Shown: in pieces, positions 8,034-40,949 of the stretch
How positions within the stretch are numbered: the first letter of the stretch is position 1
Layout: every line of letters starts with the position of its first letter
Assembly: GCF_030388325.1 (NCBI RefSeq)
Contig: NZ_CP103794.1
Location: 4,464,001-4,528,000, forward strand
From: Flavobacterium johnsoniae
GTDB lineage: Bacteria > Bacteroidota > Bacteroidia > Flavobacteriales > Flavobacteriaceae
Length of the DNA: 64,000 nt
Direction of reading: 5' to 3'
Notes under the pieces: generated by a model
The model's database searches: none
The model's input: the letters and a program-made list of their open reading frames with translations, nothing else
Told to the model about the DNA's origin: nothing
Translations under genes and position numbers: made by a program

Positions 8034-8037
8034 GGTG

Positions 8038-22248: not shown

Positions 22249-22350
22249 TGTCATTCCGAGGAACGAGGAATCTCCGTAAGAAACTCGACAAAGATTGGTG
22301 ATTTTAATTGCGGAGCTACTTACGGAGATTCCTCGTTCCTCGGAATGACA
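22249..22350. repeat. Long inverted-repeat element E1
   Basis: The left arm 22249-22280 and the right arm 22319-22350 are perfect reverse complements over 32 bp (TGTCATTCCGAGGAACGAGG at the outer end), with a 38-nt loop. A related element lies at 40846-40949 in the opposite orientation, judged by its loop. No open frame fits it. Confidence 0.9.
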
Positions 22351-22383
22351 AACTTTGGCGAAACCTGAAACATTAAAACAAAA

Positions 22384-22413
22384 AAAGGCATAAAATCTAA
22401 ATTTCATGCCTTT
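22384..22413 (-). terminator. Terminator after the 22436 gene
   Basis: AAAGGCAT (22384-22391) pairs with ATGCCTTT (22406-22413), with a further AAAT/ATTT inside. On the minus strand a T-run follows. It lies 23 bp after the stop. Confidence 0.8.
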
Positions 22414-22435
22414 CAAATATTTTATAAATTTCATA

Positions 22436-22918
22436 TTAGAAAAATCTGCTGTGCCAACTATCGGCAGCAGGAACTTCCCAAGATTCATTAAATTCTTCGA
22501 TATTATTAACCAAATTATTGAAAACAATTGTGTTCTCAGAAACAGATTTATCTTTAACCATTTTCTTAAAATCAATTAATGGTTTGTGTGCAATATGTTC
22601 GCCAAGTTTAAAAGTAACGTTCATTTTATCTAACAGATCAACATTGTACTTTTTTTCTAAGCTTTGAATAAATTCAACTGAACTATCAATTGAACAGCCA
22701 GTTGCTGCCTGTACATCTTGATTTACAGCCAATATTATAAATCTATTGTATTTCAATAAAAAAGAAGCTTCTAGACTTGTGCCGTGCGCAGCCCATTGTT
22801 CTACAAAAGCTTTTAAATCAGTTTCAATTTCAGAAAACTCTTCCTCAGAAAACTTTCTGTTTGATTGGTAAATCCAGACTCTAGATTCACCTGGTAAATT
22901 TTCAAAAGGTATATACAT
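22436..22918 (-). CDS. Conserved Bacteroidota protein of unknown function
   Basis: A 160-residue soluble protein without signal peptide, opening YIPFENLPGESRVWIYQSNR and containing VEQWAAHGTSLEASF and DRFIILAVNQDVQAATGCSIDSS-like sequence. Similar proteins are found across Flavobacteriia and are sometimes labelled ABC transporter ATPase, but I see no Walker A, Walker B or signature motif, so that label is not supported. It is upstream of a terminator and follows the redox gene pair at a distance of 116 bp, so it may be the last gene of that unit. Confidence 0.8.
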   Translation of the reverse strand: MYIPFENLPGESRVWIYQSNRKFSEEEFSEIETDLKAFVEQWAAHGTSLEASFLLKYNRFIILAVNQDVQAATGCSIDSSVEFIQSLEKKYNVDLLDKMNVTFKLGEHIAHKPLIDFKKMVKDKSVSENTIVFNNLVNNIEEFNESWEVPAADSWHSRFF

Positions 22919-22988
22919 TTTTTAATTTTAGATTGTTGATTTTAGATTTTAGATTTTTTGAAAAGTTTTAAGTTTCATGTTTCAAGTT

Positions 22989-23031
22989 CAAAAACTTAGA
23001 ATCTTAACATCTTAGAACCTTAGCAACTTTT
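22989..23031 (-). repeat. 43-bp dispersed unit with about 10-bp internal period, copy 2
   Basis: It matches 36 of 43 positions with the unit at 5268-5310 and, like it, sits immediately after the stop codon of a minus-strand gene (23035). Confidence 0.7.
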
Positions 23032-23034
23032 TTT

Positions 23035-23826
23035 TTACAAATCTTGCGCGTTTGCTATTAACTCAGCAACGTCCATTACTTTTACTTCACCTTCTTTATG
23101 TGCGTGTTTAATTCCATCTGTTAACATCGTATTACAGAAAGGACAACCAGCAGCAATAATATCTGGTTTAACTTCTAAAGCATCTTCTGTACGAAGAACG
23201 TTTACTTCTTTGTTTCCAGGTTCAGCATCTTTAAACATTTGCGCTCCACCTGCACCGCAACATAATCCATTTGCTTTAGAACGTTTCATTTCAACTAATT
23301 CAACGTCCAACTTCTCAATTAAATCTCTCGGAGCTTCATAAACTTTATTTGCTCTTCCTAAATAACAAGGATCATGGAAAGTAATTTTTTTTCCTTTAAA
23401 TTGTCCGCCTTCAACAGTCAATCTTCCATCATCAATTAATGATTTTAAAAATTCTGTATGATGTATAACTTCGTAATTCCCTCCTAATTCAGGATATTCA
23501 TTTTTCAAAGTATTAAAACAGTGCGGACAAGCCGTAACAATTTTCTTTGCTTCATAAGCATTCAGAACTTCAATATTCATCATCGCTTGCATCTGAAACA
23601 AAAACTCATTTCCAGCTCTTTTTGCAGGATCTCCAGTACAACTTTCTTCCGTACCTAAAACTGCAAAAGAAACATTTGTACGATTTAAAATTCGCACAAA
23701 CGCTTTAGTAATTTTTTTTGCTCTATCATCAAAACTTCCTGCGCAACCTACCCAAAACAAAACTTCTGGCTGTTTTCCTTCGGCAAGCATTTCTGCCATT
23801 GTTGGCACTACTAAACTTTCTGACAT
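23035..23826 (-). CDS. CCG-domain iron-sulfur protein, HdrB/GlpC/LutA-like
   Basis: A 263-residue soluble protein with two cysteine-rich CCG domains: GCAGSFDDRAK and CPHCFNTLKNEYPE in the first, HDPCYLGRAN, CCGAGGAQMF and AGCPFCNTML in the second. Relatives bind a non-cubane [4Fe-4S] cluster and carry electrons or reduce disulfides in heterodisulfide reductase, lactate and glycerol-3-phosphate oxidases. It is encoded 87 bp downstream of a membrane [4Fe-4S] protein, and the two together look like a split HdrD/DsrK-type electron transfer pair. The physiological donor is unknown. Length is typical for a two-CCG subunit. Confidence 0.9.
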   Translation of the reverse strand: MSESLVVPTMAEMLAEGKQPEVLFWVGCAGSFDDRAKKITKAFVRILNRTNVSFAVLGTEESCTGDPAKRAGNEFLFQMQAMMNIEVLNAYEAKKIVTACPHCFNTLKNEYPELGGNYEVIHHTEFLKSLIDDGRLTVEGGQFKGKKITFHDPCYLGRANKVYEAPRDLIEKLDVELVEMKRSKANGLCCGAGGAQMFKDAEPGNKEVNVLRTEDALEVKPDIIAAGCPFCNTMLTDGIKHAHKEGEVKVMDVAELIANAQDL

Positions 23827-23913
23827 TTCTCTCTCTTTTGTTTAAAGTTTAAAGTTCAAAGTTTCATATTTTATTCTGAAATCTGAAATCTTAATTCATT
23901 ATGAGAATTTATT

Positions 23914-25248
23914 TTAATTCTCGTTTTTCCAATTTAAACGGTCTTGCTGGCTATACTGCCAAGGCGCACCGTTATTTTCAATATTAGTCATCATCGCGTT
24001 TAATGACATTGGAGCAGCACTTTGCTCCATTACCAAATAACGACGCATATCCATAATAATAGATAACGGACTAATATTTACTGGACATTCTTCTACACAA
24101 GCATTACAAGACGTACAAGCCCATAATTCTTCTGGAGTAATATAATCGTTTAAAAGTGATTTATTATCTGGAACAAAAACACCTTTATTGGCGTCAATAT
24201 TTTTTCCAACTTCCGTCAAACGATCTCTTGTGTCCATCATAATTTTACGAGGAGACAATTTTTTACCCGTTTGATTTGCTGGACATGATGAAGTACAACG
24301 CCCACATTCTGTACACGTATAAGCATTTAATAACTGAACCCAATTTAAATCCTGAACATCGCTTGCACCAAATTTAGCTGGAGCTGAATTTTCATCTGCT
24401 GGCGGTGCCGCTGCAAACGGATCGGCGTTTGGATCCATCATCAATTTCACTTCATTTGTAACAGAAGCTAAATTATCAAACTGTCCTTCTGGTTTTAAAT
24501 TTGCAAAATAAGTATTCGGGAAAGCCAAAAGAATATGTAAATGTTTTGAGAAATATAAATAGTTCATAAAAACTAAAATTCCAGCAATATGCAACCACCA
24601 AAATACTTCAAACAAAAGAACAACTAATTCATTTGACATTCCGTTAAAAATAGGCGCAATAAACTGACTTATTGGAAAACTTCCTGCTTTATGAAAAATT
24701 CCTCCTGGAACATTTTGCAAATGATAATCAGAAGCATTCATCAATAAAAACAAAATCATCAAAACGGTTTCGAAATACAAAATGTAATTCGCATCGCTTT
24801 TTGGAAATCCAGTTAAATCAGAGTGAATAAAACGCTTCAATCTGATAAAGTTTCTTCTAATCCAAAAAACAGTTACAGCAAAAATTACCAGTATTGCTAA
24901 TATTTCAAATGAAGCAATCAGAACATCATAAACAACACCTAAATAAGGCGCAAAAATCCTATGCGTCCCGAAAAGTCCATCAATAATGATTTCAAGCAAT
25001 TCAATATTAATAATGATGAATCCCACATAAACAAAAATATGCAGTATTCCAGCAACAGGGCGTCTCACCATTCTTGATTGCCCAAGAGCAATCAAAGCCA
25101 TGTTTTTCCATCGAGCTTTAGGATTATCTTTTCGATCTACATCTACTCCCAAATTAATGTTTCGGATGATCTTTTTTACGCTCGCTGCAAAAAAACCGAA
25201 ACCAACTACAAGAAGTATGGCAAACAAAATATTATCTAAATAACTCAT
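23914..25248 (-). CDS. Membrane protein with two [4Fe-4S] ferredoxin motifs, HdrD/DsrK-like electron carrier
   Basis: A 444-residue protein with five to six membrane helices (about residues 7-25, 66-86, 96-122, 150-170, 205-232), then a cytoplasmic dicluster domain with CTECGRCTSSCP and CTSCNACVEECP. Histidines in the membrane helices (HIFVYVGF, WWLHIAGIL) could ligate haem, as in nitrate-reductase gamma-like subunits. With the CCG protein encoded next, it could pass electrons between the menaquinone pool and a cytoplasmic thiol or flavin acceptor. It follows the MCE gene by 6 bp, so the four genes from the amidase to here may be co-transcribed. Confidence 0.9.
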   Translation of the reverse strand: MSYLDNILFAILLVVGFGFFAASVKKIIRNINLGVDVDRKDNPKARWKNMALIALGQSRMVRRPVAGILHIFVYVGFIIINIELLEIIIDGLFGTHRIFAPYLGVVYDVLIASFEILAILVIFAVTVFWIRRNFIRLKRFIHSDLTGFPKSDANYILYFETVLMILFLLMNASDYHLQNVPGGIFHKAGSFPISQFIAPIFNGMSNELVVLLFEVFWWLHIAGILVFMNYLYFSKHLHILLAFPNTYFANLKPEGQFDNLASVTNEVKLMMDPNADPFAAAPPADENSAPAKFGASDVQDLNWVQLLNAYTCTECGRCTSSCPANQTGKKLSPRKIMMDTRDRLTEVGKNIDANKGVFVPDNKSLLNDYITPEELWACTSCNACVEECPVNISPLSIIMDMRRYLVMEQSAAPMSLNAMMTNIENNGAPWQYSQQDRLNWKNEN

Positions 25249-25254
25249 TTACAA

Positions 25255-26220
25255 TTATTTTTTATCAGTTGAATTTGTATCTTCAGTTGGTGCTACATAA
25301 GGTTTGTTTTTCTTTCCAAAAAGAGAAACATTTACGTAACGTGTAGGATATAAACGTACATCTTGCAATAACAATTCAAGCTCTTTTGAAGTTTTAGCTA
25401 AGTTATTATAAAGAGCGTCGTCGTTTAATAATTTACCCGCAGTACCTTTTCCAGAATTTAAATTAGCCATTAAACCATCAACTTTTGCCAAAGCTTGGTT
25501 AAGATTACGAACTGTTTTCCCTAAATCAGCTTTATTTAAAGAATCAGAGATTTTATTGAAATTGTTTGATGCTTTATTAAAGTTAGAAACCATTCCGTTA
25601 ATCTGTCCTTTATTAGTGTCTAAAATATTATTTAAACTACCAGATGCTTTGTGAAACTGCGCCATTGTCTGACTTAACTCAGCAATTGTTTTCTTTAAGT
25701 TTTCTTGTGTTTGCTTGTCTAAAGTATTGTTCAGTCCAGTAACTAAAACATCAATATTTACAAGCATTTTGTCTAGCTTTTGCTGAATTGGTTCAATTTT
25801 CCCTCCTAAAGATTCAGTCAACCCAAGTTCAACCGCAGAAGCTAAAGTCTGTCCATCTTCTGCTAATTCTTTATCTGCCATATTCGGTACAATCTTAATT
25901 TGTTTTCCGCCAATTAAACTTGGAGAATACAAAGATGCAGTACTTGTTTTCGAAATTGGAAAATCTGTTTTTAATTGAAGTTCAACTAATAATTTACCAG
26001 TAACTTCGTCTATAGTGATTTTACTTACTTTACCAATTGCTAATCCGTTTAATGTAACGGGAGCTGAAGCTGACAAATCTTCAACATTATCATATTGAAC
26101 ATATAAAGTTTTATAATTTGTAAAAAGATCTCTGCCTTTTAAAAAACTATAACCCCAAATAAATAATAAAATCGATGCGATGACTAAAATAGCCGTTTTA
26201 ATTTCTCTTGTTAGTTTCAA
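25255..26220 (-). CDS. MlaD/MCE-family lipid transport protein
   Basis: A 321-residue protein with an N-terminal membrane anchor (residues 8-25), an MCE domain (about 37-115; YVQYDNVEDLSASAPVTLNG, LIGGKQIKI) and a long alpha-helical tail rich in Asn, Lys and Leu with repeated FNKASNNFNKISDSLNKA-like heptads. MCE proteins form hexameric periplasmic rings that move phospholipids between membranes. Only one MCE protein and no MlaE or MlaF is adjacent here, so the permease and ATPase must be elsewhere. It lies between an amidase gene and the redox pair. Confidence 0.92.
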   Translation of the reverse strand: MKLTREIKTAILVIASILLFIWGYSFLKGRDLFTNYKTLYVQYDNVEDLSASAPVTLNGLAIGKVSKITIDEVTGKLLVELQLKTDFPISKTSTASLYSPSLIGGKQIKIVPNMADKELAEDGQTLASAVELGLTESLGGKIEPIQQKLDKMLVNIDVLVTGLNNTLDKQTQENLKKTIAELSQTMAQFHKASGSLNNILDTNKGQINGMVSNFNKASNNFNKISDSLNKADLGKTVRNLNQALAKVDGLMANLNSGKGTAGKLLNDDALYNNLAKTSKELELLLQDVRLYPTRYVNVSLFGKKNKPYVAPTEDTNSTDKK

Positions 26221-26270
26221 AATTCTAAGTGTTTGTACAAAATTAATATAAATATTCGAACTAAGGCTTA

Positions 26271-27395
26271 TTATTTAATTGCGTCCTGAATACTGATTTT
26301 TTCTCCATCTCTAGTTGCTACTAAAAATGCTGCGCCATACCCTTTACTTTTAGCTTCTTGCAAATATTTTTGCGCAGTTTCGTAACTTGAAGTTTCTTCG
26401 TAGAAATACTTATATATATTGTTTTCAAATAACATCGTCACATTTTTTAACCCTTTGAAGTTTTTAGGTTCCAATGGCGTTTTTTTAATACTCGCTATTA
26501 GCTGTACTTTAAAAAAGGTTCCTTTAGGCGCATTTTTAACCGCTGCAACAGGAGCAGTTGTTTTAGGTTTTACTGGTTTTGAAGTATCTCTTATGGGCCG
26601 ACTGTCGTCTGATTCACCACCTGAACCAAAATATTCTCTCTTATAACTTAAAATTGCCTCTGCGATTGCTCTTGCAATATCATCCTGACCTTCTTCAGAA
26701 TTTAGAATATTACCTTCTGTTGGGTTAGACACAAATCCAGTTTCAACCAAAACTCTAGGCATGTATGCTTTATGAAGTACCATGAAAGGTGCTTGTTTTA
26801 CACCACCTTGACGAAGTTTCTTACCTAATTTTTCAAAATTATCTTCGATTTTAGTAGCCAAAGAAATACTGTTATCTAAATATTCTTCTTGCATCAAAGT
26901 CATACCGATCATTGATTCTGGAGAATTAGGATCGTAACCTTCATATTTACGTTTATAATCTTTCTCTAAAGTAATTACAGAGTTCTCTTTCTTTGCCGCT
27001 TCAAGGTTTGACGCAACTTTACTTAAACCCATTACATAAGTTTCTGTTCCGTCGGCAGCTGTATTTTTATTAGCATTACAGTGAATAGAAACAAAAATAT
27101 TTGAATTGGCTCTATTTGCGATGTTTGCTCTTTCGACCAAATCGATAAAAACGTCTGTTTTACGGGTATAAATTACATTAACATTCGGATTTAGTTCTAA
27201 AATCTTTCCCACTTTTAGAACAATCGCTAAAGCAATATTTTTTTCAATTCTGCCGCTATAAACAGCTCCAAAGTCATGATCACCATGTCCAGCATCCAAA
27301 GTTACTTTAAACACATTGGACTGACTATGAGCATAAAAAGACAGGATTGTTAGAAATAAAGTAAATATTACCTTAAATTTGTTAATTCTATTCAT
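26271..27395 (-). CDS. N-acetylmuramoyl-L-alanine amidase (Amidase_3) with C-terminal SPOR-like domain
   Basis: A 374-residue secreted protein starting at ATG 27395, which gives a signal peptide (MNRINKFKVIFTLFLTILS, cleavage after HSQ). A longer reading to 27461 adds 22 residues ahead of it and destroys this. Zinc and catalytic residues lie in LDAGHGDHDFGA, IEKNIAL, SIHCNAN and VLVETGFVSN. A linker rich in K, P, T and A leads to a C-terminal segment (about 295-374) that resembles a SPOR peptidoglycan-binding domain. It cleaves the amide between muramic acid and stem peptide during daughter-cell separation. Divergent from lptD. Confidence 0.9.
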   Translation of the reverse strand: MNRINKFKVIFTLFLTILSFYAHSQSNVFKVTLDAGHGDHDFGAVYSGRIEKNIALAIVLKVGKILELNPNVNVIYTRKTDVFIDLVERANIANRANSNIFVSIHCNANKNTAADGTETYVMGLSKVASNLEAAKKENSVITLEKDYKRKYEGYDPNSPESMIGMTLMQEEYLDNSISLATKIEDNFEKLGKKLRQGGVKQAPFMVLHKAYMPRVLVETGFVSNPTEGNILNSEEGQDDIARAIAEAILSYKREYFGSGGESDDSRPIRDTSKPVKPKTTAPVAAVKNAPKGTFFKVQLIASIKKTPLEPKNFKGLKNVTMLFENNIYKYFYEETSSYETAQKYLQEAKSKGYGAAFLVATRDGEKISIQDAIK

Positions 27396-27472
27396 AAATC
27401 TAAAAGTTAATTTTAATAAAATGCAGCTGTTATAATTTTCAGAATTGATTATTTTTGCCAAAAAATTATATG

Positions 27473-27480
27473 TAAGTTTG
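27473..27480 (+). promoter_or_regulatory. -7 box in front of lptD
   Basis: TAAGTTTG is a perfect TAnnTTTG. Possible TTG partners sit 15 or 25 bp upstream, both outside the usual spacing. If used, transcription starts near 27486 and the lptD start must be further downstream, which supports the TTG at 27529. Confidence 0.45.
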
Positions 27481-27528
27481 ACATGTCAAAAAACAAGCCA
27501 TAATTTTACAAAAATAGCATTTAAACCT

Positions 27529-30177
27529 TTGCATACAAACTTATTTAATATCGTTTTAATATCATTTTTCCTAACTATAGGTTGTGGTAATTTATATTCG
27601 CAAGAAATAAAAAACAAAAAAAAGCCTTTACCTGCTGTAAAACAAACAGATAAAGAATCCAAACCCGTAATCGATACTATAAAGCTAGACACTGTTAGAC
27701 CTAAAAAGACTTTTTTGGATGGAAAAGTAAAATACAGAGCTAAAGATTATGCAAAAATTGATCAGAAAAACAAACTTATCACTTTATACAACGAAGCCGA
27801 ATTATACTATAAAGATGTAGAATTAAAATCGGGCATCATTATTCTTAATTATGAAAAGGACGAAGTTTATGCAGGAAGAATAAAAGATTCTGCTGGGGTT
27901 TTAGTCCAATATCCTAATTTTAAACAAGGTTCAAGCGAAGTTCAACCCGACTCAATTCGATTTAATTTCAAAACAAAAAAAGCATTAATTTATAATTCTA
28001 GAACCGAACAAGGAGAATTTAAAATTAAAGCTGCTGTTACTAAAAAAGAAAACGATTCTGTTTATTTCTTAAAAGGAGCGCGTTTTACAACTTCAACAGA
28101 TGTTGATCATCCAGAATATTATTTCCAAACCAGCAAAGTAAAATTTATTCCTGGAAAAAAAGTAATTACCGGTTTAACCAACATGGTAATTGCCGACGTA
28201 CCAACACCTTTAGCATTACCTTTTGCATATTTTCCGATGAGCCAGGAAAAAAGTGTTTCTGGTATTATTATTCCTAGTTATAATGATTCTAACACCAGAG
28301 GTTTTTCTCTTCAAAATGGTGGATATTATTTTGCTTTAAGTGATCATTATGATTTAACCGTACTTGGAGATTATTACACTAACGGAAGTTACGCCATGCG
28401 ATTTGAATCTTCATATGCAACAAGATACAAATATCGAGGAAATGTAAATATCCGTTTTGAAAATCTAATAAACAGCGAACGTGGATATCCTGATTATTCA
28501 AAACAAAATATTTACAACATTCAGTGGTCGCATTCTAAAGACACAAAATCAAACCCAAATTCAACCTTCTCTGCATCGGTAAATATGGGTAGTAGTAAAT
28601 ACTTTAAACAATCTATTAACCAAGCCAACATTGGTTCGAACTTAAACAACACTTTAAGTTCTTCTATTTCATACAATAAAACTTTTAATACCATTCCAGG
28701 ATCTCGTATTTCGTTATCGGCAACGCATCAGCAAAATACGCAAACAGAAGATATCATTATGACACTTCCTACATTGCAAGGAAGTATAGACCGTATTTAT
28801 CCTTTTGCTGGAAAAGACGGCGTAAAGAAAGGGATAATTAAAAACATCAACTTGCAATATAACGTAAGCGGAAAAAATGAATTTAAAACAAAAGATTCTT
28901 TGTTTTTCAAGCCGCAGATGTTTAAAGATGCCCAGATGGGAATGCAACATACAATTCCTCTTAGTACAAACTTTAAAGTTTTTAAATATTTTAGTGCAAG
29001 TGCTTCCACAACTTATCAGGAAACTTGGGTAAACAAAACAATCAAAAAAAGCTATGATGCTTCAACTGGACAAGCAGAACCTACACCTGTAAATGGTTTT
29101 GACTCTTTTAGAACTTATAATTTTAGCACAAACTTAGGAACAACCATTTACGGAACTTTTAATTTTGGCGAAGACAAGAAAATTCAGTCTATAAGACACG
29201 TTATGCGTCCAAGTGTAACTTATGCTTACACACCAAGTTTTGAGCGTTATTATGATACTTATGCTGTAGATGCAAGCGGAAGAATCACTTCTGAATATAC
29301 AAGATTTGAAAACGGTCTTTTTGGACAGCCTGGTAAAGACAATTCTAACGTTGTTGGTTTTTCTTTGAGTAATACTTTTGAAGCAAAAGTAAGAGACAAA
29401 GACAGTACTAAAACTGAACCAAAAAAAATAATGCTGTTAAACAACTTAAACTTCAGTACAAGTTATAACTTCAATGCAGACGGAAAAACAACTTTTGGAT
29501 GGCAGCCTGTATTAGTAAGTGGTGGAACACAGTTTTTTGACAATAAAATGAATATGAACTTTGGCGCAACATTAGATCCTTACGCGATTGATAATGGAGG
29601 TAACAAGTTAAACAAATTCAACATTGATAACGGCGGAAGTTTATTTAGAATGACCAGCGCAAACGTAACGGTAAACTATTCGTTTTCTAGTAAAGGAACC
29701 GGCGAAAAAGACAAGAACACCCAAAGTCAGCGGAATGGTGGACGAAGTGATGATTTATTTGGTACAAACACCGATTTAAATGACACTCGAAATAGCCAAT
29801 TTGCCAATGAACCTGAAAAAGAAGATGTGATTACTGAGTTTTTTAACTCAAAAATCCCTTTTGACATGACTCTTGCCTACTCTTTAACATACTCTAATAT
29901 AAATCGAGAGAATAGAATCTCTAATAACTCTCTTATGATTTCGGTTAACACAGACATTACACCAAAATGGAAAGGTGGAATTTCTACTGGTTATGATTTT
30001 GTACAAAAAGGAGTTACTTTTACCCAATTCCGTTTTGAAAGAGATTTGTTAAGCTGGAGAATGGCATTTAATTGGCAGCCTCTAGGAACAAATTCTAACT
30101 GGAACTTCTTCATCGGAATCAAATCTGGTATGCTTAGTGACATTAAATGGAACAAACGAAGCGTTTCTAATCGATAA
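27529..30177 (+). CDS. lptD: LPS assembly outer membrane protein LptD (OstA)
   Basis: From the TTG at 27529 the protein has 882 residues; the frame is open to 27445 (910). The chosen start gives a compact signal peptide (hydrophobic stretch then NLYSQE) and lies after the -7 box. An OstA beta-jellyroll domain (VKYRAKDYAKIDQ, ITLYNEAELYYKDVELKSG, then PLALPFAYFPM near residue 240) is followed by a large C-terminal barrel. LptD inserts lipopolysaccharide into the outer leaflet of the outer membrane. It is divergent from the amidase gene and 25 bp upstream of ridA. The start is the uncertain point. Confidence 0.88.
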   Translation: MHTNLFNIVLISFFLTIGCGNLYSQEIKNKKKPLPAVKQTDKESKPVIDTIKLDTVRPKKTFLDGKVKYRAKDYAKIDQKNKLITLYNEAELYYKDVELKSGIIILNYEKDEVYAGRIKDSAGVLVQYPNFKQGSSEVQPDSIRFNFKTKKALIYNSRTEQGEFKIKAAVTKKENDSVYFLKGARFTTSTDVDHPEYYFQTSKVKFIPGKKVITGLTNMVIADVPTPLALPFAYFPMSQEKSVSGIIIPSYNDSNTRGFSLQNGGYYFALSDHYDLTVLGDYYTNGSYAMRFESSYATRYKYRGNVNIRFENLINSERGYPDYSKQNIYNIQWSHSKDTKSNPNSTFSASVNMGSSKYFKQSINQANIGSNLNNTLSSSISYNKTFNTIPGSRISLSATHQQNTQTEDIIMTLPTLQGSIDRIYPFAGKDGVKKGIIKNINLQYNVSGKNEFKTKDSLFFKPQMFKDAQMGMQHTIPLSTNFKVFKYFSASASTTYQETWVNKTIKKSYDASTGQAEPTPVNGFDSFRTYNFSTNLGTTIYGTFNFGEDKKIQSIRHVMRPSVTYAYTPSFERYYDTYAVDASGRITSEYTRFENGLFGQPGKDNSNVVGFSLSNTFEAKVRDKDSTKTEPKKIMLLNNLNFSTSYNFNADGKTTFGWQPVLVSGGTQFFDNKMNMNFGATLDPYAIDNGGNKLNKFNIDNGGSLFRMTSANVTVNYSFSSKGTGEKDKNTQSQRNGGRSDDLFGTNTDLNDTRNSQFANEPEKEDVITEFFNSKIPFDMTLAYSLTYSNINRENRISNNSLMISVNTDITPKWKGGISTGYDFVQKGVTFTQFRFERDLLSWRMAFNWQPLGTNSNWNFFIGIKSGMLSDIKWNKRSVSNR

Positions 30178-30202
30178 ACTTTCGAATCAAAATACTTTCA
30201 TT

Positions 30203-30938: not shown

Positions 30939-30948
30939 AAAATCAGAA

Positions 30949-31800: not shown

Positions 31801-31883
31801 TTGTTTAGTTTTTGGAATTAGGCTTTTCTATTTTTAATTTAAAAGTGTGATTTTTACATTAATTATAGAGGTAACAAAATAAG

Positions 31884-31913: not shown

Positions 31914-31929
31914 GCAAAAATATATATTA

Positions 31930-32958
<1,029 letters not shown>

Positions 32959-33028
32959 TTATTACACTATTTTCAAAGTCTAATTTCCTCACAATAAACT
33001 TCTCTTCTTTTTAAACTTTTATTTTTGA

Positions 33029-34015: not shown

Positions 34016-34323
34016 TATTTAAGTATTAAAGTGTAAAATTAGCAAACATTAAGCACTTTTCGGGTTACGATTATCATAAATTAATAAAATCTGTTAAATT
34101 CAAACGTTTTCGTTAATAAGTTTTTTCTATGAAAAAATTTCATTAAAAATAAAAAATTGCTATTTTTTTATTAAATCGTCAAAAATTAACAATACCCAAA
34201 TGAAGTGTTATAAAATTAGAATTTCTCTCTCACATGAAAAATTCTGAAAGTGGGCCTAAATTTAGCACAAAAAAAACCATTATGAGAATAATGGTTTTAT
34301 AAATATCTTTTTTTAACAAATTG
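34016..34323. other. 308-bp A+T-rich gap between pfkA and the tamB-like gene
   Basis: Apart from the terminator at 34273-34298 and the pfkA leader, I see no gene, repeat or structured RNA here. Confidence 0.6.
34273..34298 (-). terminator. Terminator after the tamB-like gene
   Basis: AAAACCATTAT (34273-34283) and ATAATGGTTTT (34288-34298) are complementary around a 4-nt loop. On the minus strand a run of T follows. It lies 25 bp after the stop. Confidence 0.85.
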
Positions 34324-37300
34324 TTAATAATCATTATCAGGAATTAAACCTTGATTATTTGCTGGTTCTTCTTTTTTCTTCTTCTCCTCTTCTTTTTTCT
34401 TTTTCTCTTGCTCTTTCTCGGCTTTCTTTTTATTTTTCTCCGATTCTTTCTTGCTTGTAAAATTCACATAATCTGGATTTAAATAAGAATCCTGAAGATC
34501 ATCTGAGGTTTTAGAAGCACGTTCGATTTTTTGTTTTTTGAACAGCTTATTTACAAGCTCGCTAAAAGTATCAAAATCCACTTCGTAAGAAACACCGACA
34601 CCTTGCGTATATCCAATTCCTTGTCCTATATAATTAATATCATTTTCTTTATTAAATAATCGAAGGTTCATTGTTCCGTCTTCATTTACACGATACAAAA
34701 TTTCAATATCTCCAACAATTGCAGATTCATTAACCCCTCCAACCGGAACTCCGACTTTCCCATTAATAGTAATTCGCTCATTTACCTGAGAAGAAATATT
34801 AGCCACAAACTGACCATCTACTTCCTGCCCTGTTCTTCTATCAGCAGCAATATAATTTAAATCAATATTTACCTTATCATTATCTGATTTAATAATTCCT
34901 CCTAATAAACTCGATGCCGTTTCTGTCAATGTTCCAGAGAAATCGCCTTGACTAAATCCGTCTGTACTCATAAACGAACCTGTTGACAATAAATATAACG
35001 CTTGTGTCTGGCGAATATCTTTATCGTCTAATTTATATTGAATTTCAGATTTCAAGACATTACTTACGGATGGAAACTGAATATCAAAATTGGGCTCTGG
35101 ACTTGCCAAATCTCCTCTTAATCCGATAACAACTTCTACAGGCACTTTTTTATTGAATGAAGAAGTATTATCCAAAAGTACGGCTGGATTTGCTTGGGTT
35201 TTATAAACTGCTTCCAGATTTAACTGAGCACGCATCGGGTTTCCTTCCCAAATAATAGAACCTCCTTTTTTAACTGCGAATTTTTTATCGATAAGTCCGC
35301 CGTATTTAAAGTTATATGTTCCTTCGTATGCCTGGAAATCTCCCCACATATTAAACTTACCTAGAGTATTGATTTTAAACAAAAGCGATCCATATCCTTT
35401 TCCTTTCATTCCATGACCAGAATTTCGATCCAAAATAACTTCTACTTCGGCATCTGGCGTGATATCAAAATCAAATTCTAGTTCAAGTCCGTTATAGTTT
35501 TTTGTTTTTTCTTCAATTCCATTCGCTAGATTATATTTTTCCTGTGGCGTAACAAAATGAATCCAACTGCTTTCTCCAACACTTTGCACATTATTAATAG
35601 GTATCTTAACCTCCGTGCCTTTTTCAGACTTAGCGTCTACTTTTATAAACAAGCCATCAACTGGACCTCTAATACTAGCCGATCCGTTTATGAATGCGGT
35701 TCCGAAATAAGCCGCGTCATCACTATCTTTTGTATCTAAGGCTAATAAGCGTTTAGAAGTTATATTCAAATCCAGTTTCCAATCGCCGAAATTCTTATGC
35801 TCAATACTTCCATTAAGCAAACCTTTTGTTCCGTATTTCGTGTCTGTTAACTGATTATTTCTAAATAAAAACTTTTCATTCGTCAAATCAATTACAGTTC
35901 GATCGCTTAATTCATAATCTGTATTGAGATACGGAATTGTCATACCTGCCTTTTCAACATACAATCGTCCATTGATTTCAGGTTTTTTCAGATTTCCGAC
36001 TACCGATGCATTTCCAGAAACCGAACCTCGAATATTAGACAGCACATCGCCGCCAATCGTTCCTAAAGTTGCTAGATTGAATCCTTCCAATTTCAGACTC
36101 ATATCCATGATTGTTTCTTTGTTTTCTATAGCAAAAGTTCCGTTAGCTCTAAAAGATTCTGTAAAACCATTTTGTACAGAAGAATTAACAGTAAACTTTC
36201 TAAAAGTTTCGTCTCCAGAAATATCAAAATTAAGCGTACCTAATTCTGTTTTATTCAACACAAGATGATCAATTTTAATAGATGCCGTTGGCTGATAAAC
36301 ATTTTTATTCTGCTTATAATTGACTCTTCCGTTTAAATTACCATCAAATACAAATTTGGAATTTAAAGGCGTAATTTTATTAATATCAACATCTTCAAAA
36401 TTGAGTTCGAGATCTTTATAATCGCTTCCTTTCATCACTCCATTCAAATCAATTTTCTGATTTTCGTGAGATAAAACAATATTATCAAATGTGAAATTCT
36501 TAAAAAACTGATCAAAAACAATTTGATTATCTGGTCCCGCTTGTTCATTTAAATACCATATATAGTCTTTAAATTTCATTTCCGATTTCTTGATTCCGAC
36601 AATATTATTTTTATTCTTATCAATCGTATGATATAAATCTAGATTGAAATAATCCTCGCCTTGATTTCCGCCTTTAAATTCAGAACGAACAAACAGCGTA
36701 TCTTTAGAAGTAACATTAATTAAATTGAAATCTCTAATCTTGTAATAAGGCGTTTTTATACTATCTAACTCAACATAAGCGTTGTAAAGCGGATTTTTAT
36801 TATCAACATTTACACGAATATTATCAAATGTATTTTTAGCTGCCGTAATTTTTTTAGATCTGAATCTAAATTTAAATTCCTGAAGATCAGAATCAATTTT
36901 CCCTCTAACAACTGTAGACGAATCAATATTAATTTCAGGATAAAGCATTTCTACAACTTTATCATAAACACGGAAATTAAATCTTAAAAATTGTCCTTTT
37001 CTAACTTTATAAGGTTTATAATTGGTATACAAACTACCAACCGAATTCATTACCAGTTTATCTAATTGGTCAAATCTAAATTTACCAACGATTTTTCCAT
37101 CCACAACATCATTCGAACTAATTGTAATTGTTCTAATTCTTTCAGCATCAAAGTTTGAATTGATATTTACTTCATCAAAAACATAAGTTGCCTTTGGATT
37201 CTGATATTCTGTGTCTTTGATATAAATATTTCCTTGAAGATTTTCAATTGAATTTCCAGTTAACTGAACTTCAACATCTCCTCTAAATTTAGAAATAGAA

Positions 37301-38847
37301 TCTCCAACAAACTTAAGTTTTCTTAAATCTGAATTTTCTACGTTAATATGAAAATCATATCGATTTTCTCTTTTGCTTAAATCTAATAAACCATCAAAAG
37401 TTAAATTCAGATTCGGATCATTTACAGCAATTTGTCCTTTATAATAAGGAAGTTTAAAATTTCCGTTTACTACAATATTATTGTACGTGTATTTATTATA
37501 ATCTAACTTAGAAATATCTCCTTTTACAATGGTATTCAAGTATTTTTCTGTAAAACCAACTCCATCAACATCAAGATTTAAGGTTGTTCGTCCTACATCT
37601 TTTCGTCCTAAAACTGCTCCGACATCAAAATTATCCAACACAATATTTCCCGAATACGAAGCTTTATCAATAAAGTCCATATTATTCAGATGCAGATCGA
37701 CTTTTCCGTTTCCTAAATCGGTCGCCATTTTAAAATCTGTTTCTAATGCAGTTGTAGAAACTTTAGCTTTTCCGACAATATTAAATTTCCCAATTCTTTT
37801 AAGTTCTTTTGGAAGTTTTTTGCCCAAAATTTCTGGAAGTAACACTACCAAATCATCATAACTAGAAAGCAGTTTATCAAACTTTCCATCCATGTAAAAT
37901 TTCTGGGTTTTACTGCCTAAAAGATTTTTAAAGTTTATCGTTCCATTAATTTTCGATCCGTTTGTATCGCTCAATCTTAATTTAGTAAGAGTTAAATCAT
38001 TAAGCGGACCATTTAATTTAGTTTTGATTTTAAAATGCTGATTCTTACCCAATCCATCATAAAAATGACGAATATCGTTGGTAGCAATTGATGCCGAATC
38101 CAAAACAACATTAAATCTTACTTTATCTGTAAAATCCAGAAAATCTGATGGTTTATAATTCAAAATAGCGATACCGTAAAGTGAAGATCGTTTTGTTTTA
38201 ACGGCCAGATTTTCGACCTTAATTTGTTTTTTGGTATAGCTAAATTTACCCGCAAAATTAGAAACATACAAACCGCGATGATCCATAAAAGAAAACCTAT
38301 GGATAGTCGTATTTACTTCCGGTCCATACAGTTTAAAATCGCTTATATAAGCATTTAATTTGGTGAAATCTAAAAACTTAGGCGTAGTTTTATTTTCATC
38401 GACAACAGAAAATCTTCCTTTTTCGATGTACGCATTTTTAGCAGTTAAGAGAAAATGTTTAGTCGATTTTTTCTTAGGCGTATTTTCAACCTCAAAAGCT
38501 TTAATAAATTTATTGATATTATTCTCATCTTCACCTTTGTAGGTTTTCAGATTAAAGATTAAACCCGTCAGACGCAAATCTCCAAAAATTAAATCGCCGT
38601 CAAGTAATCGGCTAAGACTGGCAATATCAGTTGTAATAATATCAGAATAAATAAGCGTTTGTTTATGATGATCTAAAATCATCACATTTTTTAGTTTAAC
38701 GCCTCCAAAAATATTAATCGCAGTTTTTTCTACACTGATATTAACTTTATAATCTTCGTTTAACGAATTAGTGACATAATTGGCAATCTGAGTTTGAACA
38801 ACGGGTAAAGAAAGTATGATAGCTAATGCCAGCACAAGTAAAATCAA
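34324..38847 (-). CDS. tamB: TamB-like translocation/assembly module protein
   Basis: A very long protein of 1507 residues: an N-terminal hydrophobic anchor (first 20 residues, LSLPVVQTQ following), a long repetitive beta-rich stretch of AsmA/TamB type, and a C-terminal TamB domain (about 1100-1440, with GSIIWEGNPMRAQLNLEAVYKT and ALYLLSTGSFM) followed by a lysine/glutamate-rich tail. TamB proteins bridge the two membranes and move phospholipids or help assemble outer membrane proteins. The TTG start at 38847 is doubtful: the frame runs 22 codons further upstream, very lysine-rich, with no ATG. Divergent from tsaD. Confidence 0.9.
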   Translation of the reverse strand: MILLVLALAIILSLPVVQTQIANYVTNSLNEDYKVNISVEKTAINIFGGVKLKNVMILDHHKQTLIYSDIITTDIASLSRLLDGDLIFGDLRLTGLIFNLKTYKGEDENNINKFIKAFEVENTPKKKSTKHFLLTAKNAYIEKGRFSVVDENKTTPKFLDFTKLNAYISDFKLYGPEVNTTIHRFSFMDHRGLYVSNFAGKFSYTKKQIKVENLAVKTKRSSLYGIAILNYKPSDFLDFTDKVRFNVVLDSASIATNDIRHFYDGLGKNQHFKIKTKLNGPLNDLTLTKLRLSDTNGSKINGTINFKNLLGSKTQKFYMDGKFDKLLSSYDDLVVLLPEILGKKLPKELKRIGKFNIVGKAKVSTTALETDFKMATDLGNGKVDLHLNNMDFIDKASYSGNIVLDNFDVGAVLGRKDVGRTTLNLDVDGVGFTEKYLNTIVKGDISKLDYNKYTYNNIVVNGNFKLPYYKGQIAVNDPNLNLTFDGLLDLSKRENRYDFHINVENSDLRKLKFVGDSISKFRGDVEVQLTGNSIENLQGNIYIKDTEYQNPKATYVFDEVNINSNFDAERIRTITISSNDVVDGKIVGKFRFDQLDKLVMNSVGSLYTNYKPYKVRKGQFLRFNFRVYDKVVEMLYPEINIDSSTVVRGKIDSDLQEFKFRFRSKKITAAKNTFDNIRVNVDNKNPLYNAYVELDSIKTPYYKIRDFNLINVTSKDTLFVRSEFKGGNQGEDYFNLDLYHTIDKNKNNIVGIKKSEMKFKDYIWYLNEQAGPDNQIVFDQFFKNFTFDNIVLSHENQKIDLNGVMKGSDYKDLELNFEDVDINKITPLNSKFVFDGNLNGRVNYKQNKNVYQPTASIKIDHLVLNKTELGTLNFDISGDETFRKFTVNSSVQNGFTESFRANGTFAIENKETIMDMSLKLEGFNLATLGTIGGDVLSNIRGSVSGNASVVGNLKKPEINGRLYVEKAGMTIPYLNTDYELSDRTVIDLTNEKFLFRNNQLTDTKYGTKGLLNGSIEHKNFGDWKLDLNITSKRLLALDTKDSDDAAYFGTAFINGSASIRGPVDGLFIKVDAKSEKGTEVKIPINNVQSVGESSWIHFVTPQEKYNLANGIEEKTKNYNGLELEFDFDITPDAEVEVILDRNSGHGMKGKGYGSLLFKINTLGKFNMWGDFQAYEGTYNFKYGGLIDKKFAVKKGGSIIWEGNPMRAQLNLEAVYKTQANPAVLLDNTSSFNKKVPVEVVIGLRGDLASPEPNFDIQFPSVSNVLKSEIQYKLDDKDIRQTQALYLLSTGSFMSTDGFSQGDFSGTLTETASSLLGGIIKSDNDKVNIDLNYIAADRRTGQEVDGQFVANISSQVNERITINGKVGVPVGGVNESAIVGDIEILYRVNEDGTMNLRLFNKENDINYIGQGIGYTQGVGVSYEVDFDTFSELVNKLFKKQKIERASKTSDDLQDSYLNPDYVNFTSKKESEKNKKKAEKEQEKKKKEEEKKKKEEPANNQGLIPDNDY

Positions 38848-39040
38848 CCCAAATAGGGTTCGTGATATTATTTTCTTTACTGTTTTTATAGCTGTTTTAA
38901 TTTTAGTTTTCTTTTAATTTATTTTGAGCAGACAAAGAACAACTGTTTTTGATAAAAATTCTTTAATTTTGAACACTGCTTAAATCAAAGAAATCATTTC
39001 ATTTGATTTGTCAAATATAATTCAAAATTTGTGCCTTTAT

Positions 39041-40063
39041 ATGCAAAATCCAGAGGTTTTTATTCTAGCCATCGAAAGTTCATGCGATGATACTGCTGCC
39101 GCGGTTTTACATAACGACAAAGTATTGTCAAATGTTGTAGCCAATCAATTAATTCATAATCAATACGGCGGTGTAGTTCCAGAATTAGCTTCTAGAGCAC
39201 ATCAGCAGAATATTGTACCGGTTATAGATGCTGCACTTCGCAAAGCAAATGTACAAAAAGAACAGTTAAGCGCAATCGCATTTACGCAAGGTCCTGGATT
39301 AATGGGCTCTTTATTGGTTGGAACTTCTTTCAGCAAATCTTTAGCTTTAGCTTTAAAAGTTCCGTTAATTGCTGTAAATCACATGCATGCCCATATTTTG
39401 GCTCATTTTATTGATGAAGAAGGTTACGATAAACCTGAATTTCCGTTTTTAGCTTTAACCATTAGCGGCGGACATACGCAAATTGTAAAAGTGAATAGTT
39501 TTTTTGATATGGAAATTATCGGAGAAACCACTGATGATGCCGTTGGAGAAGCATTTGACAAAAGCGCAAAAATTCTTGGACTTCCTTATCCAGGCGGACC
39601 TTTGATTGATAAATATGCGAAAGAAGGAAATCCGAAAGCGTTTAGTTTTACCAAACCAAAAGTTCCTGGATTAGACTTTAGTTTTTCTGGACTTAAAACT
39701 GCTATTTTGTATTTCATTCAAAAAAACAAACAAGCAAATCCAAATTTCATTGAAGAAAATCTAAATGACATTTGTGCTTCGATTCAGCATACGATTATTG
39801 AAATCTTAATGGATAAAATAAAATTGGCTGTAAAAGAAACCGGAATTACGCAAATCGCAATTGGCGGCGGAGTTTCGGCAAATTCTGGAATTAGAAATAC
39901 ATTGAAGGAAACGGAAAGCAAATATGGCTGGAAAACTTTTATTCCGAAATTTGAATATACAACAGACAATGCCGCAATGATTGGAATTGTTGGTTATCAA
40001 AAATACTTATCTAATCGTTTTGAAACTTCTGCAGTTGTTTCTAAAGCAAGAATTCAATTTTAA
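39041..40063 (+). CDS. tsaD: tRNA N6-adenosine threonylcarbamoyltransferase, subunit TsaD
   Basis: A 340-residue ASKHA protein from ATG 39041 (the frame opens 11 codons earlier with TTG, not expected for the family). It has AIESSCDDTAAAV near the start, TQGPGLMGSLLVG, the metal-binding NHMHAHILAH, SGGHTQIV and GGGVSANSGIR. With TsaB and TsaE it transfers threonylcarbamoyl to A37 of ANN-decoding tRNAs. It heads a plus-strand run of RNA-modification genes; rsmE follows after 3 bp. Confidence 0.97.
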   Translation: MQNPEVFILAIESSCDDTAAAVLHNDKVLSNVVANQLIHNQYGGVVPELASRAHQQNIVPVIDAALRKANVQKEQLSAIAFTQGPGLMGSLLVGTSFSKSLALALKVPLIAVNHMHAHILAHFIDEEGYDKPEFPFLALTISGGHTQIVKVNSFFDMEIIGETTDDAVGEAFDKSAKILGLPYPGGPLIDKYAKEGNPKAFSFTKPKVPGLDFSFSGLKTAILYFIQKNKQANPNFIEENLNDICASIQHTIIEILMDKIKLAVKETGITQIAIGGGVSANSGIRNTLKETESKYGWKTFIPKFEYTTDNAAMIGIVGYQKYLSNRFETSAVVSKARIQF

Positions 40064-40066
40064 ATC

Positions 40067-40771
40067 ATGCAGTTATTTTTCAATCCGAATATAGACGAAA
40101 CAACCGAAAGTTTTTCTTTTGATAAAGAAGAAAGCCGACACATTATAAAAGTTTTACGAAAAAAAGATTCTGATATTCTTCAAGTTACAAACGGTTCGGG
40201 ATTATTGTTTGAAACTCAGATTACTTTGGCTTCAGACAACAAATGTACTGTTGAAGTACTTTCGATAAAAAATGCAGAAAGACCAAAATTTCACTTGCAT
40301 CTAGCCGTTGCACCGACCAAAATGAATGATCGTTTTGAATGGTTTCTAGAAAAAGCGACCGAAATTGGGATTCAAGAAATTACACCGATTTTCTGCGATC
40401 GTTCTGAACGAAAAGTAATTAATCGTGATCGTTTTGAAAAAATCATTCTTTCGGCAATGAAACAATGTAACGAAACATTTCTTCCAAAATTAAACGAAGC
40501 TGTTTCGTTTAAAGATTTTATTAAGCAGAAAAACAATGGTTTACAATTAATCGCGCATTGCGAAGAAACCAATAAAAAATCATTGAAAGAAGTTTTAAAA
40601 CCAAATGAAGACGTTACCATCTTAATTGGTCCAGAAGGAGATTTTTCTGAAAAAGAAATTGCATTGGCATTAGAAAACAATTACAAACCTGTAACTTTAG
40701 GAAATACCCGTTTAAGAACCGAAACTGCCGCAGTTGTGGCTTGTCATAGTGTTGTTTTTTTTAATGAATAA
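40067..40771 (+). CDS. rsmE: 16S rRNA (uracil1498-N3)-methyltransferase
   Basis: A 234-residue SPOUT methyltransferase. The N-terminal PUA-like part has ESRHIIKVLRKK; the C-terminal knot shows IGPEGDFSEKE and LGNTRLRTETAAV, the family signature for AdoMet binding. It methylates U1498 of 16S rRNA at N3. It starts 3 bp after tsaD, so the two are co-transcribed. The downstream gap contains two palindromic elements. Confidence 0.95.
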   Translation: MQLFFNPNIDETTESFSFDKEESRHIIKVLRKKDSDILQVTNGSGLLFETQITLASDNKCTVEVLSIKNAERPKFHLHLAVAPTKMNDRFEWFLEKATEIGIQEITPIFCDRSERKVINRDRFEKIILSAMKQCNETFLPKLNEAVSFKDFIKQKNNGLQLIAHCEETNKKSLKEVLKPNEDVTILIGPEGDFSEKEIALALENNYKPVTLGNTRLRTETAAVVACHSVVFFNE

Positions 40772-40786
40772 ACTAAACCTATTACA

Positions 40787-40819
40787 AGCTTTGTCAAAGT
40801 TTAAAACTTTGACAAAGCT
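40787..40819. repeat. 33-bp perfect palindrome after rsmE
   Basis: AGCTTTGTCAAAGTTT (40787-40802), a single A, and AAACTTTGACAAAGCT (40804-40819) form a perfect inverted repeat. It lies 16 bp after the rsmE stop. No T-run follows, so it may be an mRNA 3' end or a repeat rather than a standard terminator. Its CTTTGTCAAAG core also occurs at 22220. Confidence 0.75.
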
Positions 40820-40845
40820 GATTTATACATAAATAAAAAGTTAAG

Positions 40846-40949
40846 TTTGTCATTTCGACGAAGGAGAAATCTCCGCGAGAAGCTCCGCAACGAAAAACCA
40901 AACTTTGTAGAGTTACTTGTGGAGATTTCTCCTTCGTCGAAATGACAAA
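40846..40949. repeat. Long inverted-repeat element E2
   Basis: The left arm 40846-40874 and the right arm 40921-40949 are perfect reverse complements over 29 bp (TTTGTCATTTCGACGAAGGA at the outer end). Five further pairs follow inward if G-U wobbles are allowed. The 46-nt loop, read on the minus strand, closely matches the loop of E1 at 22249-22350. Confidence 0.9.

Follow-up and report, generated by a model that had tools for sequence, protein, structure and literature searches.

The inverted repeats E1 and E2 of Flavobacterium johnsoniae are head-to-head dimers of TGTC/CGTC-type repetitive extragenic palindromic elements (REPs), and form part of an extensive family of short palindromes in the DNA of this organism. 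A solo GIY-YIG nuclease, encoded elsewhere in the genome beside such REPs, is a strong candidate for their cognate enzyme. With a probability of roughly two in three (0.68), E1 and E2 are non-autonomous and the REP-flanked nuclease unit is the autonomous form, which would recognise, spread and convert REPs of its own type. That genes and REPs lie together, that their hairpin types match, that the catalytic residues are intact and that some slots are empty was read from the sequence, and from this we infer that the nuclease may recognise, cleave and mobilise the hairpins. The parts of both elements in the window (the whole 64,000-nucleotide stretch of DNA that was analysed) are as follows.

22249..22350, plus strand: E1, TGTC-tagged REP pair forming a head-to-head dimer of type ATTCC / G-GAA-C with a conserved spacer, REPIN-like
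22249..22275, plus strand: E1 left REP, with TGTC tag, predicted hairpin ATTCCGAGGAACGAGGAAT and CTCC tail
22276..22323, plus strand: E1 spacer, 48 nt between the REPs, one of the 30 alignable copies that make up alignment A1
22324..22350, minus strand: E1 right REP, hairpin type as in the left REP, inverted, tag outward
40846..40949, minus strand: E2, TGTC-tagged head-to-head REP pair of type ATTTC / C-GAA-G, spacer reversed relative to E1
40848..40874, plus strand: E2 left REP, with TGTC tag, predicted hairpin ATTTCGACGAAGGAGAAAT and CTCC tail
40875..40920, minus strand: E2 spacer, 46 nt
40921..40947, minus strand: E2 right REP, hairpin type as in the left REP, inverted, tag outward

The preliminary description of this DNA had taken E1 and E2 for two inverted repeats of one family, and the arm lengths, the compensated differences and the reverse-aligned spacers were all confirmed. 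The perfect arms are 32 bp in E1 and 29 bp in E2. Over 27 shared positions the arms of the two elements differ at four (8, 12, 16, and 20), each time in both arms. The stems are ATTCC/GGAAT in E1 and ATTTC/GAAAT in E2, and the tag is TGTC in both. No target-site duplication was present in the 14 nt flanking each side of E1 and E2, and an Rfam search returned no family at the gathering threshold over either element. The arm motif occurs four times in the window at up to three mismatches, whereas 100 shuffles averaged 0.01. Genome-wide there are 66 exact arms and 159 arms at up to two mismatches, with none for a reversed-pattern control. The preliminary description had named a lack of further copies as evidence against its view, and these counts bear out its proposal of a dispersed, folding and amplified element. 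Many of the listed arms at up to two mismatches pair up as inverted dimers with tags outward; E1, E2 and 35 listed dimers are such pairs of about 100 bp, and 30 of the 35 make up alignment A1. Most listed arms have a CTCC or CTTC tail; in other congeners the tail is CNCA.

The conserved unit is the predicted hairpin of a single arm, that is, the REP. Each arm would carry an unpaired GTC tag followed by a 5-bp stem starting with AT, tandem G.A pairs, one G-C pair and a GNA triloop. Within each arm, position 8 pairs with 20 and position 12 with 16, so the four differences between E1 and E2 amount to two base pairs per arm and are compensatory within the arm's own hairpin; the arm-to-arm pairing follows from both arms being copies of one unit. 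The compensatory changes described earlier are thus real in both arms, although they stem from the hairpin within each arm and not from pairing between arms. For the three free pairs, Watson-Crick pairing held in 74, 77, and 76 of the 79 arms listed from 26 other genomes of the family. In a set of 367 distinct arms, for which loci were partly chosen for REPs and the pattern demanded AT ends and three of the four tandem-GA letters, the four stem pairs showed Watson-Crick-type pairing in 361, 359, 360, and 357; the GNA triloop was present in 352 of these arms, and a variant with a 4-nt loop was also found. Standard DNA and RNA folding models did not give the proposed hairpin as the optimum for four of five arm variants. 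In nearest-neighbour models neither tandem G.A pairs nor GNA triloops carry extra weight, and the arm hairpin therefore rests on covariation.

Dimers whose arms differ in the stem (n = 30) separate the two kinds of pairing. Of their 53 differing stem pairs, 39 were internally paired in both arms and the remaining 14 in one arm only, while between the arms 43 were mismatched at both positions and 10 at one. Uncompensated differences between arms, which the preliminary description had held to speak against it, occur in three mismatched dimers of a cluster at positions 5237934-5238329 of this genome and in four congener loci (L230, L231, L233, and L237). Selection on the long fold, as proposed there, was accordingly rejected, as these heterodimers keep their arm hairpins while losing arm-to-arm pairing.

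Outside the window, and hence out of sight of the preliminary description, two solo GIY-YIG genes lie at genome positions 502113-502421 and 5238360-5238659, both adjoining ATTCC-type REPs. Homologues were examined in two sets chosen by protein similarity, namely S1 (the best 80 of 206 relatives in genome contigs) and S2 (the 30 top matches in 299 family genomes), and a gene was scored as REP-flanked when a REP lay within 400 bp. The REP scan required AT stem ends and a C after the stem, and allowed longer cores. It picks up chance palindromes too: for random 300-bp intervals it gave a match within 400 bp in 12% of cases in the window and in 0.5% and 5% in two control stretches. REPs flanked 78 of the best 80 loci (S1) and 28 of 30 (S2), leaving two without a REP in each set. 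Query genes account for two loci of S1 and five of S2, and two loci are common to both sets; with the query genes removed, the fractions were 76/78 for S1, still drawn from the best 80 of 206, and 23/25 for S2. Of 27 congener loci, ten repeat S1 and one (L295) was not located; 16 of 17 further congener loci outside both sets were REP-flanked. Profile A2 derives from six genes with REP flanks, which tilts the choice of close homologues towards flanked loci; among lower-scoring homologues 16 of 20 were flanked and four were not. Loci of other taxa in a plasmid collection, including rhizobia, Azospirillum, Neisseria, Aeromonas, and Planktothrix, were flanked in 11 of 14 cases, with three lacking a REP. 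None of the six other GIY-YIG genes of the same genome is REP-flanked. Downstream of the nuclease gene, REPs numbered 0.75 per locus in the first 100-bp bin, 0.59 in the second and 0.00-0.04 beyond 700 bp. GTC was the commonest 3-nt tag of gene-adjoining palindromes in all three sets, and stems of 8-10 bp flank the homologues in rhizobia, Neisseria, Aeromonas, and Azospirillum.

The PF01541 domain was recognised in six of the proteins with E-values of 1.4e-16 to 2.5e-15. Tyr12, Tyr23, Arg33, His37, and Glu73, which we take to be the catalytic residues of the GIY-YIG domain, are invariant in 88 of 88 nuclease proteins. The best PDB matches of an AlphaFold model of the nuclease were UPF0213, the branched-DNA nuclease Slx1 and UvrC GIY-YIG domains. 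Six S1 loci with an internal stop (L124, L130, L151, L168, L172, and L183) were left out of the trees.

Nuclease clades match the hairpin types of their REPs. The nearest flanking REPs had tags outward at 49 of 69 loci and the same 5-nt stem at 56 of 69, where 5000 shuffles gave a mean of 22 and a maximum of 35. On the nuclease tree the REP type changes 11 times, where none of 100 shuffles needed fewer than 22 changes; in several species, nuclease paralogues of both REP types coexist, as in Flavobacterium saccharophilum with ATTCC flanks at L126 and ATTTC flanks at L167. Among family genomes, 11 of the 16 with the nuclease carried the REP pattern (6 of 11 once the query-source genomes were removed), compared with 16 of the 283 others. 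Counting only the ATTCC type and the 4-nt-loop ATTTC variant, and so not the triloop type of E2, at least three REPs were present in 25 of 37 nuclease-positive and 8 of 44 nuclease-negative congeners. REP number also rose with nuclease presence when genome size was allowed for (partial rank r 0.39). The exceptions were five nuclease-negative congeners with at least five REPs and 12 nuclease-positive ones with fewer than three of the counted types. No ATTTC-flanked nuclease for E2-type REPs is resident in the genome, both genes having ATTCC flanks, and the nearest rows to the resident nucleases on the tree were mostly ATTCC. Slots empty in relatives were found for Azospirillum sufB/sufC and Sinorhizobium gltA/lpxB as well as for E1 and E2, whose slots are empty in congeners; the preliminary description had pointed to such empty sites as a check.

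These observations are consistent with the following mechanism. E1 and E2 would be non-autonomous, REPIN-like elements of two head-to-head TGTC/CGTC REPs around a conserved spacer, in which the functional unit is each REP arm as a short DNA hairpin. In the autonomous form the spacer would be replaced by a solo GIY-YIG gene of about 100 residues, giving the order REP (tag out), gene, REP (inverted, tag out). The nuclease would recognise the REP hairpin of its own type, as single-strand DNA or a cruciform, and cut at or beside it. Repair or replication would then place copies of REP dimers, and now and then of the nuclease unit, at new sites, with resident REPs converted to the type that the nuclease serves. 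A GIY-YIG nuclease is able to cut but is not known to join strands, so insertion would need host functions. No clean insertion junction or target duplication was found. We lean towards a wider reading in which the solo GIY-YIG protein encoded between cognate REPs is the dedicated enzyme of CGTC/TGTC REPs. Gene and REPs would then make up a transposon-like unit that relies on a cut-only nuclease in place of a transposase; the enzyme would read the DNA hairpin of each REP type, and by converting resident REPs it would let REP types sweep a genome. On that same reading the unit ranges over Bacteroidota, alpha-, beta- and gammaproteobacteria and cyanobacteria, and E1 and E2 are its offspring.

Other explanations of the association were weighed. 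An unlikely one treats the GIY-YIG gene as a homing-type REP parasite, whose nuclease only cuts REP dimers and inserts copies of its gene there while another enzyme spreads the REPs. The gene stands where the dimer spacer would be, GIY-YIG enzymes include homing endonucleases, and the nuclease scores weakly, below the cut-off, against the NCBIfam model for group I intron endonucleases. In addition, congeners have arms of different type around similar spacers in one slot, the pattern expected of conversion. However, no other enzyme was tied to these REPs among the families examined (Y1 and GIY-YIG), and both the rise of REP number with nuclease presence and the agreement of clade and REP type argue against a parasite. 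It is improbable that the REPs here are moved by a REP-associated tyrosine transposase of the Y1 (HUH) kind, as GTAG REPs are. Six Y1_Tnp matches, five of which pass the Pfam cut-off, occur in the genome, the enzymes known to serve REPs are RAYTs (PMC3733652; PMC3116915, both as far as their accessible text goes), and a Bacteroidetes Y1 subclass with atypical flanking structures and copies elsewhere in the genome is described in the accessible part of PMC6006769. This candidate was rejected, as family REPs lay within 1.5 kb of none of the six matches, with only two unrelated, chance-like palindromes there, and the accessible text of Di Nocera et al. (PMC3733652) reports no gene for a tyrosine transposase with CGTC REPs at its flanks. 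It is very improbable that the hairpins serve the nuclease gene only, being bound or cut by the enzyme as DNA or mRNA for self-control or cruciform resolution, with dispersed copies as by-products; the UPF0213, Slx1, and UvrC likenesses of the model fit such a role, which alone leaves the 159 dispersed arms and their conserved dimer spacers unexplained. A long RNA fold kept for function as a terminator, small RNA or mRNA stabiliser is hardly credible: the arms of E1 and E2 are perfect and long, the elements are intergenic and the arms are identical in 42 of 76 distinct dimers, yet the heterodimers break such a fold while keeping their arm hairpins, and slots are empty in relatives.

The closest described relatives are the CGTC-tagged REPs. 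In the accessible part of their survey, Di Nocera et al. (2013, PMC3733652) have reported this superfamily, which includes Neisseria dRS3 and the Rickettsia RPE elements, from five phyla, apparently without a dedicated transposase, and have left the mobilising agent open. As far as that text goes, the superfamily, in which a CCTC tag also counts, shares with the present elements an unpaired terminal CGTC or TGTC tag, a stem starting with AT (A-T at the first and second position), a short loop, a predominance of head-to-head dimers with conserved spacers, and an occurrence in Bacteroidetes. It differs in having a stem of 8-9 bp with a loop of 4-5 nt, where the arms here have 5 bp followed by two G.A mismatches, a single extra pair and usually a 3-nt loop, and possibly in its CCA-like tail, where the tail here is CTYC or CNCA; the REP-flanked GIY-YIG gene likewise contrasts with its report of no dedicated transposase. 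The REPIN/RAYT system, as presented in the accessible parts of PMC3116915 and PMC2817692, also combines intergenic, high-copy, non-autonomous inverted REP pairs with a REP-flanked enzyme gene, but has a GTAG tag and a Y1 HUH transposase in place of the TGTC/CGTC tag and the unrelated GIY-YIG nuclease. The MITEs of DDE transposons are likewise short non-autonomous elements with terminal inverted repeats, whereas here no target duplication was seen in the 14-nt flanks of E1 and E2 and each arm would be a hairpin. Free-standing GIY-YIG homing endonucleases exist, which cut an allele without their gene and home through gene conversion, where sequence comparison here gave filled and empty slots; these and UPF0213/Slx1-like nucleases have the same catalytic domain (PF01541) and fold; the present nuclease differs in its solo domain of about 100 residues, cognate palindromic flanks and further repeat copies elsewhere in the genome. 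A literature search of open-access journal papers found none that brings together GIY-YIG and repetitive extragenic palindromes, and PMC9465073, in its accessible part, treats GIY-YIG and RayT as distinct genes, each clade-specific.

Overall, a REP-flanked, type-matched and co-occurring nuclease makes the open question of CGTC-REP mobilisation testable. If the nuclease mobilises REPs, these would be bacterial mobile elements driven without strand-transfer activity, unlike those of HUH or DDE transposition.

E1 and E2 belong to a TGTC/CGTC REP family and are REPIN-like; a REP is a single arm (a short palindrome with the tag) and a REPIN-like element is a head-to-head dimer of REPs with a spacer. 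REP types are named here by their 5-nt stem. The elements and other features of the window are as follows.

7936-8041, - strand: Bacteroidales small SRP RNA (RF04183, 92.6 bits)
22104-22179, - strand: Flavo-1 RNA (Rfam, 76 bits), adjoining E1
22249-22350: E1, type ATTCC, perfect arms of 32 bp
40789-40819: palindromic repeat GCTTTGTCAAAGTTTAAAACTTTGACAAAGC, immediately left of E2, with similar copies in the E1/E2 slots of some congeners
40846-40949: E2, type ATTTC, perfect arms of 29 bp

In congeners, the distance from the Flavo-1 RNA to the next gene is 190 to 807 bp where the RNA was found. As the preliminary description had reported, the arms of E1 and E2 differ at four of 27 shared positions and their spacers align in opposite orientation. 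With up to three mismatches allowed, the window contains four copies of the arm motif, and shuffled versions contain 0.01 on average. Further copies, which that description had proposed to look for, are numerous, with 159 arms at up to two mismatches in the 5.32-Mb genome (a single contig, the window being 4464001-4528000 thereof) and none for the reversed pattern. Thirty of the 35 dimers listed were aligned over 107 columns with a mean column identity of 86%. No target duplication was seen.

The differences between the E1 and E2 arms fall at positions 8, 12, 16, and 20 of the 27-mer beginning TGTC, which are the partners 4/16 and 8/12 of one hairpin in the 19-nt core behind the tag (ATTYC, GA, S, GNA, S, GA, GRAAT). 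Because these positions pair within one hairpin, E1 and E2 differ by two base pairs within each arm: C-G in E1 is T-A in E2, and G-C is C-G. A pattern with seven free positions (six in the stem, one in the loop) was searched in 299 family genomes; among the matches listed (79 arms, 26 genomes, the window's own excluded), the three free pairs were Watson-Crick in 74, 77, and 76 arms. In the loci collection, four pairs were Watson-Crick in 361, 359, 360, and 357 of 367 distinct arms, where independent columns would give 291, 195, 284, and 182. The GNA loop was present in 352 of these arms; the pattern behind this sample required the AT ends and three of the four tandem-GA letters. In several congeners a variant loop of 4 nt also occurs (for example C-GTAA-G and C-GAAA-G), mostly with its closing C-G pair intact.

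The compensatory changes described earlier fall within each arm's own hairpin, and pairing from arm to arm breaks down where the two arms of a dimer differ. Identical arms were found in 42 of 76 distinct dimers, and 30 differ at stem positions, which are the uncompensated arm differences that had been set against the reading of a conserved fold. The 53 differing stem pairs keep internal pairing in both arms in 39 cases and in one arm in 14, whereas arm-to-arm both positions are mismatched in 43 and one position in 10. The long arm-to-arm fold was therefore rejected as the conserved unit. At the E2 slot of congeners, single dimers combine arm types ATCTC and ATTTC (L230 and L231), ATCCT and ATTTC (L233), or ATCCT and ATCCC (L237). 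Together, the pairing counts and these mixed dimers indicate that the unit conserved is the hairpin of the single arm and that E1 and E2 are head-to-head REP dimers.

The tag, the AT-starting stem, and the dimer form are common to E1/E2 and the CGTC-tagged REP superfamily as described by Di Nocera et al. (2013; PMC3733652). However, the stem of 8–9 bp and loop of 4–5 nt stated there do not include the stem and loop lengths of E1/E2. REPs whose stem is a full 8 bp (ATGCTGAACTTGATTCAGCAT type), which are nearer to the published form than the E1/E2 type, flank five distant GIY-YIG homologues (L326, L334, L341, L342, and L344).

Empty sites, which the preliminary description had suggested seeking in sister strains, were found in congeners. 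Orthologues of the E2 slot (between the genes at 40067-40771 and 40965-41603) include filled slots of other arm types and REP-less short gaps, e.g., 15–26 bp in congener loci L242-L244, and congeners differ at the E1 slot, some having it filled, some decayed, and some empty.

Inverted REP pairs 386–389 bp apart were found in two family genomes, and the DNA between them encodes a solo GIY-YIG gene. The window's genome has two solo GIY-YIG genes adjoining REPs. Homologues were collected with A2, a profile of six REP-flanked genes, blind to REP presence, and REPs near them were recognized by a GTC tag and a stem of at least 5 bp beginning AT. Of the genome_contigs loci (the best 80 of 206 relatives), 78 had REPs within 400 bp of the gene, as did 28 of the top 30 whole-genome loci; with query-gene loci removed, the counts were 76/78 and 23/25. 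Of 27 congener loci picked, 26 were located, and 24 of these had REPs no more than 450 bp away; ten of all 27 duplicate the first set, and 16 of the 17 new ones had REPs. Twenty lower-scoring homologues, hand-picked down the score listing with one per genome, had REPs in 16 cases (shuffling expectation 0.3). From 32 plasmid-collection records with a protein match, 14 loci were fetched and 11 had REPs within 400 bp (Spirosoma, Planktothrix, Neorhizobium, Rhizobium CIAT894, Sinorhizobium, Aeromonas, Neisseria, Azospirillum, Photobacterium, and two Shinella); no REP within that distance was found in Novosphingobium pNL2, Sphingobium, and R. tumorigenes. Per locus and 100-bp bin, REP density was 0.75 and then 0.59 in the two bins nearest the gene on its 3' side, 0.33 and then 0.55 in those nearest its 5' side, and 0.00 to 0.04 beyond 700 bp. 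None of the six other PF01541 (GIY-YIG domain) genes of the window's genome had REPs. Background was counted in the window and in S. meliloti and A. lipoferum records, Neisseria, where REPs are dense, being outside the count. Each 50-kb stretch of the two records gave two chance-like hits and the window five beyond the four E1/E2 arms; among random 300-bp intervals, 12% of those drawn in the window had a hit of any kind at 400 bp or less, against 0.5% and 5% of those drawn in the two record stretches. Derivation of A2 from REP-flanked genes biases the sampling, and the distant sets, with other REP sequences, speak against this bias as the whole cause of the association. Arrays were also observed: three tandem REP dimers with arms of different hairpin types adjoin a GIY-YIG gene at genome positions 5237934-5238329 (L078, L099), and dimer arrays lie beside the gene in Flavobacterium loci such as L124, L130, L149, and L152.

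In A. lipoferum the nuclease unit occupies the slot between sufB and sufC, a slot that lacks the unit in A. ramasamyi, A. oryzae, A. sp. B510, and A. thermophilum. In Sinorhizobium meliloti Ak57 the unit is found between gltA and lpxB; the same slot of Sinorhizobium sp. K101 has REP remnants and no nuclease unit, and K101 has matches elsewhere. A REP-flanked GIY-YIG gene inside a sufB-sufC-matching stretch was seen in both Azospirillum lipoferum (L193) and Shinella sp. PSBB067 (L321), possibly two insertions at one place.

PF01541 matches the nuclease proteins at E 1.4e-16 to 2.5e-15. Tyr12, Tyr23, Arg33, His37, and Glu73, which we take to be catalytic as in the GIY-YIG family, occur without exception in all 88 aligned proteins. 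An AlphaFold2 model (mean pLDDT 87.6) has its best PDB matches in UPF0213 BH0048 and Slx1 and, lower, in the UvrC GIY-YIG domain. E-values are weak, the best being 0.0035, but Foldseek gives the first two matches a probability close to 1. Slx1-Slx4 processes branched DNA, according to PMC8287910.

At 49 of 69 loci the tags of the nearest upstream and downstream REPs point outward, and at 56 of 69 the two REPs share the 5-nt stem (mean 22, maximum 35 in 5000 shuffles). With loci whose two flanks disagree in type set aside, REP type changes 11 times on the nuclease tree (100 columns, few strongly supported branches), compared with a minimum of 22 over 100 shuffles. On this tree ATTTC- and ATTCC-type nucleases separate (2 changes each versus about 17 shuffled). 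Species ancestry alone does not explain this match because both types coexist as paralogues in single species, e.g., F. saccharophilum (L126/L167) and F. tyrosinilyticum (L142/L176). The REP pattern used in the search of the 299 genomes occurred in 11 of 16 nuclease-positive family genomes (match at E < 1e-38) versus 16 of 283 others (Fisher 1.2e-9), and in 6 of 11 positive genomes with the five query-gene genomes removed (Fisher 3e-5). At least three REPs of the counted types were present in 25 of 37 nuclease-positive versus 8 of 44 negative genomes of the genus sample (n = 81; Fisher 1e-5), and with genome size removed the partial rank correlation of REP number with the nuclease was 0.39 (p 3e-4); genomes in these statistics are not independent, and the genus count misses E2's own loop type. 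Exceptions are five nuclease-negative genus genomes with at least five REPs and 12 positive ones with fewer than three. Six of these 12 were fetched; five had REPs beside the gene, mostly of uncounted types, and one (L290) had none there.

Overall, these data establish the association of the nuclease with REPs and the match of their types, and the GIY-YIG nuclease carried between such REPs is probably the cognate enzyme of the E1/E2 REPs, an assessment that taking out query loci and overlaps between the sets leaves as it was. No resident nuclease matching the E2-type REPs was found in the window's genome, which would imply either loss of the enzyme or service by the ATTCC-type enzymes. The nuclease would recognize REPs and cleave at them, and conversion and copying of REPs may follow.
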